Assembly (NCBI GenBank): GCA_943788095.1
Contig: CALSOZ010000002.1
Coordinates: forward strand, 1-64,000
Direction: 5' to 3'
Origin: an uncultured Flavobacteriaceae bacterium
Lineage (GTDB): Bacteria > Bacteroidota > Bacteroidia > Flavobacteriales > Flavobacteriaceae
DNA: 64,000 nucleotides
The position numbers were made by a program, and so were the translations under genes. This document shows, in pieces, positions 4,294 through 11,874 of the stretch; the first letter of the stretch is position 1, and each line of letters opens with the position of its first letter. The notes beneath the pieces are model-generated. The model saw only the letters and a list, made by a program, of their open reading frames with translations, ran no database searches and was not told the DNA's origin.

Positions 4294-5547
4294 TTAAATG
4301 CCAAAAGCATCTTTAATCACATCGACATAATCCAGTTTTTCCCACGTAAACAATTCAACATTCAAAGTCAAGCTTTCGCCATTCGGTTGATGAAAAGTTT
4401 TAGTCACTGTCTTGTGTTCGCGACCCATATGTCCATAAGCAGCAGTTTCGCTATAAATTGGACTTCGGAGTTTTAATCGTTTTTCGATGGCTGCTGGTCG
4501 TAAATCAAATAATTTTGAGATATTATTTGCAATTTCACCATCGGTCAAATTAAAAGGACAAGTTCCGTAAGTATCCACAAACACACCCATAGGTTCCGCA
4601 ACCCCAATGGCGTAACTCACTTGTACTAAGACTTCTGAACAAATTCCGGCAGCCACCATATTTTTGGCAATATGACGTGTGGCATAAGCCGCACTACGGT
4701 CTACCTTACTAGGGTCTTTCCCAGAAAAAGCGCCACCACCATGAGCACCTTTCCCGCCATAGGTATCCACGATAATTTTTCGTCCTGTAAGACCGGTGTC
4801 TCCGTGTGGTCCACCAATTACAAATTTACCCGTTGGATTGATGTGATAAGTAATTTGATCATTAAATAATTCTTGAATCTGAGCAGGCAGTTTTGCGACC
4901 ACTCTTGGGATTAATTTTGTTTTTAAATCCTCTCGAATTTTTGCCAACATAGCGGTTTCTTCGTCAAAATCGTCATGTTGTGTAGAAATGACGATCGCAT
5001 CAATTCGTTTCGGTGTATTGTCATCATCATATTCAATCGTAACCTGGCTTTTAGAATCGGGTCTTATATAAGAAATTTCGGTGCCTTCGCGGCGCATGGC
5101 TGCTAATTCGATCAATATACGGTGTGATAGATCTAATGCCAACGGCATATAGTTTTCGGTTTCATTGGTCGCATATCCAAACATCATTCCTTGATCGCCA
5201 GCGCCTTGCTCTTCTTCACTTCCTCTGTCCACACCTCTGTTGATATCTTCTGATTGCTCATGAATGGCAGAAAGCACCCCACAAGAATTCCCGTCAAACA
5301 TATATTCTCCTTTGGTATAACCAATTTTATTGATGGTATCGCGTGCAATTTTTTGCACATCCAAATACGTTTTAGATTTAACCTCTCCAGCTAAAAAAAC
5401 TTGCCCTGTTGTAACCAGTGTTTCACATGCCACTTTTGAATCGGGGTCAAAGGCTAAAAAATGATCGATTAAAGCATCACTAATTTGGTCGGCAACCTTA
5501 TCTGGATGGCCTTCTGAAACGCTTTCGGATGTAAATAAATAACTCAT
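4294..5547 (-). CDS. metK: S-adenosylmethionine synthetase
   Basis: Makes S-adenosylmethionine from methionine and ATP in the cytoplasm. Diagnostic motifs are [18 protein letters not shown] near the N-terminus, [12 protein letters not shown] near residue 120, and the glycine-rich loop [16 protein letters not shown] near residue 265. The start at 5547 ([17 protein letters not shown]) was chosen because the family begins just before this motif; the longer open frame adds 12 unsupported residues. Length, about 417 aa, is normal. It is a single-gene unit with a -7 box and a probable SAM-II riboswitch upstream, so feedback by its own product is likely. It converges on the DMT transporter gene. Confidence 0.95.
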
Positions 5548-5601
5548 AAACAGTGTTTTATGAGAACAAAAATTGGATTGCAAAGCTGGTGGAGTAGTGT
5601 T

Positions 5602-5655
5602 TACTGCTTTAGCTTTTTTTTAATGAGGTTGCAATCAGATCAAATTTGTCCTCCA
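5602..5655 (-). promoter_or_regulatory. Probable SAM-II riboswitch upstream of metK
   Basis: Read on the minus strand, the leader has a short stem (GGAGG with CCTC) closing a loop that ends in TTGCAA directly before the 3' strand. An A-rich stretch and AAGCTAAAGCAG follow. The SAM-II class has the same order: P1, a loop ending UUGCAA, the P1 3' strand, an A-rich linker, then AGCUAAA-type sequence that folds back into the loop. Here CTG in the loop can pair with CAG at the 3' end to form the pseudoknot. The position just after a -7 box and before metK fits. The match was made by eye, not with a covariance model. Confidence 0.6.
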
Positions 5656-5664
5656 ATGATAATG

Positions 5665-7605: not shown

Positions 7606-7827
7606 TCTAGATGCATTAAGCAACACATTTAGAGCTTGTTCTAAGTCAAGTCGTGCAAAAAGCATCTAAATTAATTCAGTAAAAAAGAGACTTAAAAATA
7701 TATTTTATCGATTATAGGCCGCTTTTCATTGAATTATCTATAAATTTTCTACACATTGCATAAAAAAAAGAAATTAAGTTTTAATTTCTAAAAAATATAT
7801 ATACTTTAGCTTTTCAGTTAAACAATT

Positions 7828-7905
7828 ATGACCACAGTAAATTACATATTTTATAGCTTTTACTATTTCTTTTTTAGAAAAAAGAACGAGGCGCTGTGTA
7901 TGTAA
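7828..7905 (+). CDS. Phe/Tyr-rich leader peptide of the aromatic amino acid operon (25 aa)
   Basis: A short frame reads MTTVNYIFYSFYYFFFRKKN then EALCM and a stop. Ten of residues 6-16 are interpretable as a control run: five Phe and four Tyr plus Ile and Ser. It lies 57 bases before pheA and ends 28 bases before a terminator hairpin. The arrangement is that of a ribosome-mediated attenuator: when charged Phe-tRNA or Tyr-tRNA is scarce, the ribosome stalls in this run and the terminator fails to form. Bases 7839-7848 can pair with 7899-7908, giving a candidate competing hairpin. The peptide was found by reading the leader directly and is far too short for usual gene callers. Confidence 0.8.
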   Translation: MTTVNYIFYSFYYFFFRKKNEALCM

Positions 7906-7932
7906 TTTATCAATATAAATTTTAAATATAAG

Positions 7933-7961
7933 TCTCGATGTAAACATCGGGATTTTTTTTT
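7933..7961 (+). terminator. Attenuator (intrinsic terminator) directly before pheA
   Basis: The arms TCTCGATGT and ACATCGGGA form a 9-pair stem (one G-T) with a very small loop, followed by nine T residues. The pheA ATG is the next codon, so read-through is required for expression. A competing hairpin AATTTAT-CAAT-ATAAATT lies just upstream (7904-7921). Confidence 0.8.
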
Positions 7962-8789
7962 ATGACAAAAAAAGTAGCCATACAAGGAATAGAAGGATCA
8001 TTTCATCACATCGTTTCTCAAAAGTATTTTGAGGAAACTGTGGAGGTGCAACCCTATCTTTCATTTAGTGAAGTGGTCGAAAGCTTGTTGTCCAAGACCT
8101 CAGATGTTGCTGTGATGGCATTAGAGAACTCTATTGCAGGGTCTATCATTCCAAACTATGCGCATATCAATGATCAAGATTTGCATATTACAGGCGAATA
8201 TTTTTTAGAGATTCAACATAATTTGATGGCGCTAAAAGGCCAGTCCATTGAAGATATCAAAGAAGTTTTTTCACATCCAATGGCATTGTTGCAGTGCAAA
8301 GATTTTTTTAAACAGTATCCTCACATAAAGTTAATTGAAGATACAGATACTGCAGAGGTTGCGAAACGCATTTCAAAATATCAGTTTCAAGGAATTGCAG
8401 CAATAGCGAGTTTGGAGGCCGCTAATATTTTTGATTTAGAGATTTTGGCCAAAAGCATTCAAACCATCAAGCACAACGAAACCCGATTTGTGATTGTCGA
8501 AAGAGATCCGATTCTACAAAATGTAGAAAACATTAGTAAAGCTTCTGTGAAATTTCTTTTAGACCACAAGCGTGGCAGTTTAGCTGCCATGCTAAACGTG
8601 ATGAGTGATTGTAATTTGAATTTAACAAAAATTCAATCGTTACCAAAAATTGATACTCCCTGGAAATATGCCTTTTTTGTAGACATTACATTTGAGGACT
8701 ATTCCGAATACGAAAAAGGGAAAGCCATTATGAAAATCATGGCTGAGGAATTTAAAGTTTTAGGAGAATATAAAAACGCCAAAAAATAA
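7962..8789 (+). CDS. pheA: Prephenate dehydratase
   Basis: Converts prephenate to phenylpyruvate, the committed step to phenylalanine. The dehydratase domain occupies about residues 3-180, with ALENSIAGSIIPNY near residue 50 and the catalytic-site HNETRFVIV near 170. A C-terminal ACT regulatory domain follows (KRGSLAAMLNVMSDCNLNLT near 205), which suggests allosteric Phe feedback. Length, 275 aa, is normal for a monofunctional enzyme, unlike the enterobacterial chorismate-mutase fusion. The ATG abuts the attenuator. Its stop overlaps the start of the aminotransferase by one base. Confidence 0.93.
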   Translation: MTKKVAIQGIEGSFHHIVSQKYFEETVEVQPYLSFSEVVESLLSKTSDVAVMALENSIAGSIIPNYAHINDQDLHITGEYFLEIQHNLMALKGQSIEDIKEVFSHPMALLQCKDFFKQYPHIKLIEDTDTAEVAKRISKYQFQGIAAIASLEAANIFDLEILAKSIQTIKHNETRFVIVERDPILQNVENISKASVKFLLDHKRGSLAAMLNVMSDCNLNLTKIQSLPKIDTPWKYAFFVDITFEDYSEYEKGKAIMKIMAEEFKVLGEYKNAKK

Positions 8790-9931
8790 TGGTCACTGCC
8801 AATCGATTACATACCGTCGAAGAATACTACTTTTCTAAGAAATTAAGGGAAGTCAATGCACTTAAAGCAGCAGGCGCCCCGATCATTAATTTAGGCATCG
8901 GAAGCCCAGATTTGGCGCCACCAAAGTCCGTTATTTCTGCTATTACCGACAGTCTGACGGATGCCTCAGCACACAAATATCAAAGTTACCAAGGGCTGCC
9001 AGCATTGCGGGAAGCCATGGCCAATTTTTACCAAACACATTACAATGTTACTCTGAATCCCAAAAACGAAGTTTTACCTCTTATTGGAAGTAAAGAAGGG
9101 ATTATGCATATTTCAATGGCGTACCTAAATGAAGGCGATGCGGTGTTGATTCCAAATCCAGGCTATCCAACCTACACTTCTGTGACCAAATTAGTAGGAG
9201 CAGAACCTGTTTTTTACGATTTACAAGCGAGCTCCAATTGGCAGCCAGACCTAGCAGCCTTAGAAGCGATGGATGTGTCTAAGGTAAAAATCATGTGGGT
9301 CAATTATCCACACATGCCAACGGGTACTTTAGGTGATCAAACCGTGTTAAAAGCATTGGTTGATTTCGCCAAAAAACAGTCTATTTTACTGATCAACGAC
9401 AATCCTTATAGTTTCATTTTAAATGACAACCCCTCAAGTATTTTTAATACTCAAGGCGCAAAAGAGGTCTGTTTAGAACTGAATTCTTTGAGTAAAACCT
9501 TCAATATGGCCGGATGGCGGGTAGGAATGTTAACAGGCTCGGCAAATCATTTACAGAACGTAATTAAAGTCAAAAGCAATATGGATTCCGGAATGTTTTA
9601 TGGCATTCAAAAAGGAGCGATTGAAGCCCTGAACAGTTCAAAAAATTGGTTCAAGGATTTAAACAAAATCTATGCGGAACGCCGTACACTTGTGTGGGAA
9701 TTAGCCAGCGCTCTCAACTGCACATTTGAAACCACCACTTCGGGAATGTTTGTATGGGCCAAGTTACCCTCTGGTATAAAATCAGAAACTTTTATTGACA
9801 ACTTATTACAAGAGCATCATATATTTATTGCGCCAGGCACCATTTTTGGAAGCAATGGCGAAGGCTATATTAGATTCTCATTATGTGCGCCCAAAGACAG
9901 TATTCAATCTGCAATAAATCGAGTGTTATGA
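8789..9931 (+). CDS. Pyridoxal-phosphate aminotransferase (class I/II), probably for Phe/Tyr
   Basis: A fold-type I aminotransferase of 380 residues. Visible features are INLGIGSPDLAPP near residue 35, the cofactor region, NYPHMPTGT in the position of the usual NPxNPTG motif near residue 172, and the lysine region SLSKTFNMAGWRVG near 240, where SKTF carries the Schiff-base Lys. Placement between pheA and tyrA in an overlapping operon points to transamination of phenylpyruvate and 4-hydroxyphenylpyruvate, an inference from context. Its TGA overlaps the ATG of tyrA. Confidence 0.85.
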   Translation: MVTANRLHTVEEYYFSKKLREVNALKAAGAPIINLGIGSPDLAPPKSVISAITDSLTDASAHKYQSYQGLPALREAMANFYQTHYNVTLNPKNEVLPLIGSKEGIMHISMAYLNEGDAVLIPNPGYPTYTSVTKLVGAEPVFYDLQASSNWQPDLAALEAMDVSKVKIMWVNYPHMPTGTLGDQTVLKALVDFAKKQSILLINDNPYSFILNDNPSSIFNTQGAKEVCLELNSLSKTFNMAGWRVGMLTGSANHLQNVIKVKSNMDSGMFYGIQKGAIEALNSSKNWFKDLNKIYAERRTLVWELASALNCTFETTTSGMFVWAKLPSGIKSETFIDNLLQEHHIFIAPGTIFGSNGEGYIRFSLCAPKDSIQSAINRVL

Positions 9932-10779
9932 AACAGGTAAGCATCATAGGGATCGGATTGATTGGTGGAAGTTTTGCACTGGATTTAAAGGACTATATGT
10001 CAGGAGTTCATATCATAGGAATTGATCAGAATGAAGCCCATTTAAAAGAAGCCTTAGAATTAGAGATCATCGATCAAATAGGGGATTTAGACTCCCTTAA
10101 AACGGCAGATTTGGTCGTGTTGGCAATTCCTGTAAATGCAGCGATTAAAGCCTTGCCACAAGTTTTAGAATTGATAGCGGACCACACAGTCGTCATCGAT
10201 ATGGGATCAACTAAAGAAGCGATTTGTAAAGCTGTGGCAACGCATCCAAGACGCGCTCAATTTTTAGCCACACACCCCATTGCCGGTACTGAATTTTCGG
10301 GACCTTCCGCTGCGATCAAAGGATTATTTAAGAATAAAACCAACATTATTTGCGAGGTCGAAAAAACCTTACCAGTATTAGGAGAGGAGATGTTAGCCCT
10401 TTTCAAAACCATGGGAATGCGCTTGCGTTTTATGCCGGCGAATGATCATGATAAACACATTGCCTATGTGTCGCATTTGTCACACATTAGTTCCTTTATG
10501 TTGGGAAAAACGGTGATTGATAAAGAAAAAAATGAACGCAATATTTTTGACATGGCAGGCAGTGGATTTGAGTCCACCGTGCGATTGGCAAAAAGTTCGC
10601 CCGATATGTGGACCCCAATTTTTGAACAAAACAAAGCCAATATTATAGAAACGCTGACCGAGTACATTCAGAATTTAAATCAGTTTAAAGCCTATATGGA
10701 GCAAGACGATTTTGAAGCGGTCTATAATGAAATGAAAAACACAAATCATATAAAACAAATATTAAAAGGAATTGCTTAA
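9928..10779 (+). CDS. tyrA: Prephenate dehydrogenase
   Basis: Oxidises prephenate to 4-hydroxyphenylpyruvate with NAD(P), the first dedicated step to tyrosine. The start at 9928 (MKQVSIIGIGLIGGSFALDL) places the Rossmann motif GxGLIGGS at the N-terminus and overlaps the preceding stop as ATGA; the longer frame begins inside the aminotransferase gene and is rejected. THPIAGTEFSGP near residue 110 and the helical C-terminal region with HLSHI..FMLG near 190 are family features. Length is about 283 aa. No ACT domain is present. Confidence 0.93.
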   Translation: MKQVSIIGIGLIGGSFALDLKDYMSGVHIIGIDQNEAHLKEALELEIIDQIGDLDSLKTADLVVLAIPVNAAIKALPQVLELIADHTVVIDMGSTKEAICKAVATHPRRAQFLATHPIAGTEFSGPSAAIKGLFKNKTNIICEVEKTLPVLGEEMLALFKTMGMRLRFMPANDHDKHIAYVSHLSHISSFMLGKTVIDKEKNERNIFDMAGSGFESTVRLAKSSPDMWTPIFEQNKANIIETLTEYIQNLNQFKAYMEQDDFEAVYNEMKNTNHIKQILKGIA

Positions 10780-10791
10780 TTATAACAAAAA

Positions 10792-11874
10792 ATGGAAAAC
10801 AAAAAAGAACTAGGAAATTGGTTAAATGAGTTAAATCTCGACCACCCTTTAGTCATCGCTGGCCCTTGTAGTGCCGAGACCGAAGAACAAGTATTGCGTA
10901 TTGCGCATGAACTGAAAGACACAGACGTAAGCTATTACCGTGCAGGAATTTGGAAACCACGAACCCGTCCAGGAAATTTTGAAGGCGTCGGCGCATTGGG
11001 TCTCAAATGGCTTCAAAAAGTAAAGGCGGAAACCGGACTAAAAACCGCGACCGAAGTAGCCAATAGAGCCCATGTAGAATTGGCTTTGGAACATGACATC
11101 GATTTGCTTTGGATTGGAGCCCGCTCTACAGTGAGCCCATTTATTGTACAAGAAATTGCAGATGCTTTACAAGGCACCGATAAAATTGTGTTGGTTAAAA
11201 ACCCTGTGAATCCAGATTTAGCCTTGTGGTTAGGAGCCATTGAGCGTTTGGCAACAGCAGACATCAAAAACTTAGGGGTAATTCACAGAGGATTTTCATC
11301 TTATGAAAAAACAAAATACAGAAATACGCCCGAATGGCAAATGGCGATTGAACTGCAAACCAAGTTTCCAGATCTTCCATTAATCAACGATCCGTCTCAT
11401 ATTACAGGAAAACGCGATATGATTTTTGATGTGTCTCAAACAGCACTCGACTTGAATTTTGATGGATTGATGATTGAAACCCATCACGATCCTGATAATG
11501 CCTGGAGTGATGCGGCACAACAAGTAACACCTGCCTCTTTGATTCAAATTATGAAAGATTTAAAAATCAGAAAAGAATCGACACCAGAAGTTGCTTACAA
11601 CAATCAGCTTCAGAATTTACGCGCACAAATAGACGTGATGGACAACCAATTGTTGGAAACTTTAGGAAAGCGTATGAAAGTGGCTGAAGGCATTGGCACT
11701 CTCAAAAAACAAGAAAACGTGGCGGTATTACAAAGCAAACGTTGGAATGAGATTTTAGGGAAGATGGTCCTCGAAGGCGAACAACACAACTTGAGTGAAG
11801 AGTTTATCCTCAAACTGTTTAAAGCAGTGCACCAAGAATCGATCAATCACCAAGAATTGATCTTGAATAAGTAA
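10792..11874 (+). CDS. Bifunctional DAHP synthase / chorismate mutase
   Basis: Combines the first step of the shikimate pathway with chorismate to prephenate conversion. Residues 1-260 form a 3-deoxy-7-phosphoheptulonate synthase of the short type, with VIAGPCSAETEEQVL near residue 21, YYRAGIWKPRTRPG near 50 and INDPSHITGKRD near 200. From about residue 275, LRAQIDVMDNQLLETLGKRM begins an AroQ-type chorismate mutase helix bundle. In known fusions of this kind the mutase domain senses prephenate or aromatic products and regulates the synthase. It is the last gene of the attenuated operon and is followed by a strong terminator. Confidence 0.92.
   Translation: MENKKELGNWLNELNLDHPLVIAGPCSAETEEQVLRIAHELKDTDVSYYRAGIWKPRTRPGNFEGVGALGLKWLQKVKAETGLKTATEVANRAHVELALEHDIDLLWIGARSTVSPFIVQEIADALQGTDKIVLVKNPVNPDLALWLGAIERLATADIKNLGVIHRGFSSYEKTKYRNTPEWQMAIELQTKFPDLPLINDPSHITGKRDMIFDVSQTALDLNFDGLMIETHHDPDNAWSDAAQQVTPASLIQIMKDLKIRKESTPEVAYNNQLQNLRAQIDVMDNQLLETLGKRMKVAEGIGTLKKQENVAVLQSKRWNEILGKMVLEGEQHNLSEEFILKLFKAVHQESINHQELILNK

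Follow-up and report, generated by a model that had tools for sequence, protein, structure and literature searches.

A conserved leader with phenylalanine and tyrosine codons and mutually exclusive, co-varying pairings as the probable attenuator of a flavobacterial pheA operon

The pheA-aminotransferase-tyrA-DAHP synthase operon found in the window, i.e., the whole 64 kb stretch of flavobacterial DNA analysed here, is very probably controlled by a ribosome-mediated transcription attenuator, as judged from sequence comparison and predicted folds. The anatomy of the leader, its conservation, its mutually exclusive and co-varying pairings and its conserved spacing are established below. A short gene rich in aromatic codons would probably switch the biosynthesis genes on at amino-acid shortage. 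Attenuation by a translating ribosome was the core of the original prediction, and it is supported by the conserved frame and hairpin, the co-varying antiterminator and the near-constant spacing of the control codons. The parts of the leader and of the operon are, in window coordinates:

7802-7809, + strand: promoter -7 box TACTTTAG, Bacteroidota type TAnnTTTG
7828-7905, + strand: leader frame of 25 residues, MTTVNYIFYSFYYFFFRKKNEALCM, from the ATG at 7828 to the stop TAA at 7903-7905
7840-7848, + strand: 5' strand of the putative protector, pairing with 7899-7907 (extended to 7837-7849 with 7898-7910 in the predicted fold)
7843-7875, + strand: control run YIFYSFYYFFF, five Phe and four Tyr codons in 11
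7867-7886, + strand: inner hairpin of the predicted fold, 7867-7874 with 7879-7886, in which Phe codons pair with a purine-rich stretch on their 3' side
7887-7892, + strand: 5' strand of the antiterminator, CGAGGC, pairing with 7932-7937, with co-variation in 143 loci
7899-7907, + strand: 3' strand of the putative protector, from the predicted fold of the window and the pairing in 49 sequences
7930-7961, + strand: intrinsic terminator, 11 pairs (7930-7940 with 7945-7955) and nine T (7953-7961)
7932-7937, + strand: 3' strand of the antiterminator, GTCTCG, doubling as part of the 5' arm of the terminator
7962-8789, + strand: pheA, prephenate dehydratase (Pfam PDT, 6.1e-55; NCBIfam prephenate dehydratase, 4.6e-55, under the model cut-off)
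8789-9931, + strand: class I/II aminotransferase (Pfam Aminotran_1_2, 1.2e-61)
9928-10779, + strand: tyrA, prephenate dehydrogenase (NCBIfam prephenate dehydrogenase, 2.3e-115, over the cut-off), with the start set at 9928 in a frame open from 9883
10792-11874, + strand: DAHP synthase-chorismate mutase fusion (Pfam DAHP_synth_1, 3.4e-37; CM_2, 1.8e-21)

The main elements of the leader are those that had been predicted. Its 25-residue peptide carries five Phe and four Tyr within 11 residues, and the expected hairpin of nine pairs is present as 7932-7940 with 7945-7953, inside the 11-pair stem, with the nine T running up to the ATG of pheA at 7962. In isolation, the terminator hairpin has a predicted folding energy of -12.4 kcal/mol (z -5.9). 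The leader as a whole (7818-7961) reaches -32.8 kcal/mol (z -5.1), and 0 of 200 shuffled sequences fold equally well. Upstream, 173 of 180 loci have a box matching TAnnTT[TA]G no more than 80 nt 5' of the start of the leader frame, while mononucleotide shuffles give a mean of 25.9 and a maximum of 36. From the placing of the Bacteroidota box at -12 to -5 in PMC9723704, the transcript of the window would start near 7814. That the operon makes both Phe and Tyr agrees with its genes for prephenate dehydratase, an aminotransferase, prephenate dehydrogenase and DAHP synthase/chorismate mutase. The frames of pheA and the aminotransferase overlap by one base (8789), and those of the aminotransferase and tyrA by four bases (9928-9931) if tyrA starts at 9928; these overlaps suggest coupled translation.

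To map the distribution of the element, 199 genomes of the family were searched, of which 178 have pheA, and the 150 with the most similar PheA were examined. An aromatic short frame followed by a terminator lies upstream of pheA in 147 of these 150 genomes, so the conservation of frame and hairpin, proposed earlier as a check, extends across Flavobacteriaceae. The script itself counts 29 of 30 and 115 of 120 genomes (144 in total); the other three carry the element roughly 430-650 nt upstream of pheA (F/Y/W values 7, 9 and 9), under a looser rule of at least five F/Y/W in 12 and a terminator within 160 nt. No element was found within about 840 nt upstream of pheA in G040, nor within the 379 nt remaining upstream on the contig in G052. 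In L107 the terminator is present and the contig begins inside the leader, with the model match starting at position 19. In the genus of the window, 17 of 18 genomes have pheA, and frame and terminator are found at all 17 loci.

A set of 80 named loci (the best 80 of 259, partly on the same contigs as the family sample) has the terminator in 80 of 80 and the frame in 79, the remaining locus, L038, beginning inside the leader. The gene order pheA-aminotransferase-tyrA-DAHP synthase/chorismate mutase is kept in 79, and the contig of the 80th ends early. One locus, L025, is titled as an uncultured Rhodobacteraceae; its sequence is flavobacterial, with a PheA 87% identical and the same leader, which indicates that the metagenome bin is mislabelled or contaminated. 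The contig end at L089 1-32 resembles a sequencing-library transposase adapter, and we take its first bases to be probably not genomic.

Outside the family, 35 of 98 order and class loci with pheA, those with the most similar PheA, were examined. At least seven aromatics in 12 together with a terminator occur in 13 of these 35 (raw count), e.g., MKLFNTYYFGYFYYFSKSRG in L329, and in the other 22 the arrangement is missing or weak. A member of the same order with a genome of about 0.6 Mb (L310) lacks a Phe/Tyr leader upstream of pheA. From the counts of 147 of 150 and 13 of 35, the element is, as far as these sequences tell, family-wide and extends into the class with patchy presence. All counts were made on the sequence upstream of pheA, because model R1, which alone matches 153 of 199 family genomes at E up to 0.001, also gives weak matches at sites away from pheA; in the genome of the window itself, the second-best place reaches 37.4 bits (E 0.0016). 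R1 was therefore rejected as a stand-alone census.

The central evidence for a switch is the pairing of 7887-7892 with 7932-7937. In an alignment of the window and 48 relatives, 98.3% of the cells of this helix are paired, against 8-41% in slid controls, and the terminator reaches 99.2% in the same 49 sequences. The changes in the antiterminator are one-sided only within this set, so shuffling is uninformative there. A broader set of 143 loci was therefore used, consisting of 115 loci of the 120-genome scan, L001 and 27 of L098-L125, with L008 and L107 left out. Here the terminator arm falls into classes, GTCTCG in 81 loci, GTCCCG in 34, GTCCTG in 15, and others, and the leader strands follow: where the arm differs from one lineage to another, the antiterminator strand differs with it, as in GTCTCG/CGAGAC and GTCCCG/CGGGAC. 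At least six contiguous pairs, G-U allowed, are possible in 135 of 143 loci, with dinucleotide shuffles giving a mean of 36.9 and a maximum of 45, and eight loci have fewer than six; in this count and in those over 135 and 140 loci below, the helix is the one of best complementarity at each locus, a choice that favours the attenuator model. With the same choice, at least six Watson-Crick pairs are found in 86 of 143 loci, versus 4.9 in shuffles. When the arms are swapped between the two large classes, the share of loci with six Watson-Crick pairs drops from 0.59 to 0.07 and from 0.76 to 0.0. The GTCCTG class is less clean, with 0.33 for its own arms and 0.32 for GTCCCG arms.

The position of the antiterminator strand is tied to the control run. 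In 109 of 135 loci the last run codon ends 9-11 nt 5' of the strand. The leader stop lies at a variable distance from the strand, and in some loci it precedes it. For the RNA that a ribosome halted at the run would not mask, the antiterminator is part of the predicted structure at 139 of 140 loci. In the window, the antiterminator fold of 7885-7941, with the terminator 3' arm absent, is predicted at -13.0 kcal/mol; with both arms present the terminator fold is preferred (-15.1 vs -13.0 kcal/mol). As the terminator is the more stable structure, the switch would have to act by the order of synthesis, as textbook attenuators also do.

A further pairing, 7839-7848 with 7899-7908, had been put forward as the structure competing with the terminator. 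Its existence and conservation stand; its role does not, since the stem does not overlap the terminator and leaves it free, and the competitor is instead the helix 7887-7892 with 7932-7937. In the 49 sequences, 83.0% of the cells of 7840-7848 with 7899-7907 are paired, with two-sided changes in six of nine pairs. For this stem and the terminator together, 24 cells show two-sided change, compared with at most 13 in slid controls; counted by pairs the number is eight, barely above the controls (up to seven). The stem is absent from the RNAalifold consensus of the 49 sequences and belongs to the fold predicted for the window leader without a ribosome. In the ribosome-free leader at least half of the antiterminator strand is predicted to be paired in 127 of 140 loci, and in the window only two of its six bases are. 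The stem is best read, on the strength of these folds and alignments, as the putative protector of the ribosome-free leader. The region of the inner hairpin forms a hairpin in the RNAalifold consensus as well, with mostly one-sided changes.

We suggest the following mechanism. Shortly downstream of the promoter, a ribosome would begin to translate the leader frame. With an ample supply of charged Phe- and Tyr-tRNA, it would pass through the aromatic codons, reach the stop at 7903 and cover 7887-7892; 7930-7940 could then pair with 7945-7955, and transcription would stop at the T run that precedes pheA. When either charged tRNA runs short, the ribosome would stall in the run and open the protector, leaving 7887-7892 free to pair with 7932-7937 before the 3' arm of the terminator is made, and the polymerase would enter pheA. 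With no ribosome, the protector fold would form and then the terminator. The sequence features by which an attenuator is recognised are found here: an aromatic frame, an intrinsic terminator, an exclusive antiterminator (weaker in the GTCCTG class) and the strand spacing. That the ribosome stalls, in which direction the operon responds, and that Tyr counts besides Phe, as does Trp in relatives, are inferred.

Other readings of the same arrangement can be weighed against attenuation. One is a chance short frame in front of an ordinary terminator of an upstream transcript; in T-rich sequence such as this, Phe and Tyr codons appear readily. How often chance would produce the combination was counted as a frame of 10-45 codons with at least seven (or eight) F/Y/W per 12 residues and a terminator-like hairpin within 130 nt. 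At either threshold the only match on both strands of the 64 kb window is the pheA leader, and at eight of 12 the loci of the 80 named relatives (821,669 bases, both strands) give 75 matches at the pheA leader and 0 elsewhere. Together with the co-variation and a promoter box that separates the leader from the upstream gene, this leaves a chance frame virtually no probability, and the conservation among the sequences compared refutes it. Alternatively, the hairpin might mainly hide the start of pheA, so that the leader controls translation rather than termination. The T run of the window touches the ATG, which places the hairpin beside the start; in relatives, however, it ends 0 to 105 nt before the pheA start (as assigned by script), and farther in a few, while all 125 loci compared (overlapping sets) retain the hairpin and a run of at least five T, and we regard this reading as very unlikely. 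A nascent-peptide arrest leader like TnaC, which would sense the free aromatic amino acid in the ribosome and not tRNA charging, appears a shade less likely still: members of the genus share a highly conserved peptide, but in the family at large its residues vary freely except in the aromatic run, and the peptide end follows the antiterminator strand, which would be expected of selection on the RNA.

The most probable rival keeps the attenuator and concerns only what is sensed, namely that Phe alone counts, with Tyr (and Trp) codons carried along in a T-rich run that must also pair with the purine-rich stretch on its 3' side. Phe is indeed the commonest residue, with 665 Phe, 380 Tyr and 78 Trp over the last ten run positions of 143 leaders, and the Phe codons also build the inner hairpin. 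On the other hand, none of the 143 leaders lacks Phe or Tyr in its run, the operon makes Tyr as well, and the residue three before the run end is Tyr in 109 leaders, Phe in 32 and another in two, although the columns near this anchor are aromatic partly by construction. Taken together, sensing of Phe alone seems rather unlikely.

Trp occurs in the run of 90 of the 143 leaders. It is missing from all 17 leaders of the window's genus and present in the five rows of the sister lineage. On a FastTree tree of PheA and TyrA with 81 rows (80 labelled, 52 with Trp), the Trp state changes at least eight times, counted without regard to direction. The Trp codons could be thought to replace a missing Trp attenuator. 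This is not supported, since 141 of the 199 genomes of the family match the Bacteroid-trp model at an E of 0.001 or less, 123 of them over the cut-off. The window's own genome is among those with a match, even though its pheA run has no Trp:

L338 1521-1577, own genome: Bacteroid-trp attenuator, with leader MNQSLNNTWWWCSRKKKS, three Trp codons and a terminator (49.5 bits, cut-off 49)

On its 3' side follows a TrpE gene at L338 1590-3041 (TIGR00564, 2e-126, under the model cut-off). Given a separate Trp attenuator in 141 of 199 genomes, a Trp codon in the pheA leader would report demand on the common precursor. It can be speculated that one attenuator integrates all aromatic amino acids and that lineages edit the sensed set by swapping codons in the run, a proposal to which the comparison of leaders gives a little less than an even chance. 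If true, the integration of the aromatic amino acids stands in front of an operon that also feeds the shikimate pathway. The natural variants of the run, with and without Trp and in several pairing classes, form a series in which the sensing of shortage by codons could be measured.

The libraries of known families hold no counterpart of the element. At gathering scores, Rfam 15 has no match at the pheA leader; the best local match below them is PyrR, with an E of 0.096 and 27.4 bits where the cut-off is 54. The sole match in the window lies elsewhere, a SAM-II riboswitch at 5599-5659 (- strand, 61.4 bits) that adjoins the 5' side of metK (4294-5583, - strand; TIGR01034, 6.6e-153); the riboswitch also occurs in L018 and L035. 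Neither a T-box nor any other Rfam riboswitch matches at the leaders of 15 relatives' loci, and the Pfam and NCBIfam profiles give 0 families for four leader peptides at up to E = 1. The present work gives the full anatomy of a Bacteroidota regulatory element without a match in the RNA and protein family libraries searched, and suggests how flavobacteria control the synthesis of Phe and Tyr. Earlier comparative work on attenuators reportedly includes Bacteroidetes.

In the literature, the closest account is that of PMC9723704 (2021), where Flavobacterium psychrophilum has a transcribed, structured 5' element upstream of pheA that lacks an Rfam hit and is shared by further genera of Flavobacteriaceae; the section in question also finds "strong clues" that leader peptides attenuate operons for amino-acid biosynthesis. 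It concerns the same gene in the same family, and we liken the two by description, not by sequence. In the parts of that paper drawn on here, the pheA element is not tied to attenuation by name, and its leader peptide, antiterminator and sensed amino acids are not given; the element is anticipated in part. Table 1 of PMC2864571 has a motif likewise named for pheA, a candidate cis-regulatory element with no Rfam number there, which is set apart by its description as one of Actinobacteria. The passages used from PMC4833913 and PMC7366714 treat Bacteroidetes leader genes in general terms. Our literature search, with most subscription journals outside its coverage, found no other paper on the element among the matches listed. 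In sum, the mechanism is ordinary, well supported, conserved far beyond the source organism and partly anticipated; the additions are a complete anatomy, a switch whose strands co-vary, a correction of the competing helix and a set of aromatic control codons that is mixed and changes among lineages.

The architecture is that of the Escherichia coli leaders pheL, pheM, ilvL and thrL, in which a peptide with control codons is combined with exclusive protector, antiterminator and terminator pairings, and ilvL and thrL also mix codons for several amino acids. In E. coli, pheL precedes pheA and has Phe codons and no Tyr. The leader of the window differs from pheL in mixing Phe with Tyr, and with Trp in many relatives, and in standing before an operon that includes tyrA and DAHP synthase. 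The nearest system in the same bacteria is Bacteroid-trp (RF01692), listed for Bacteroidetes in the part of PMC2864571 consulted. Its model has no match at the pheA leader, at gathering scores or up to E = 10. The two share control codons and a terminator; however, Bacteroid-trp has Trp codons only (TWWW) and stands before trp genes, while the leader described here places Phe and Tyr codons before pheA.
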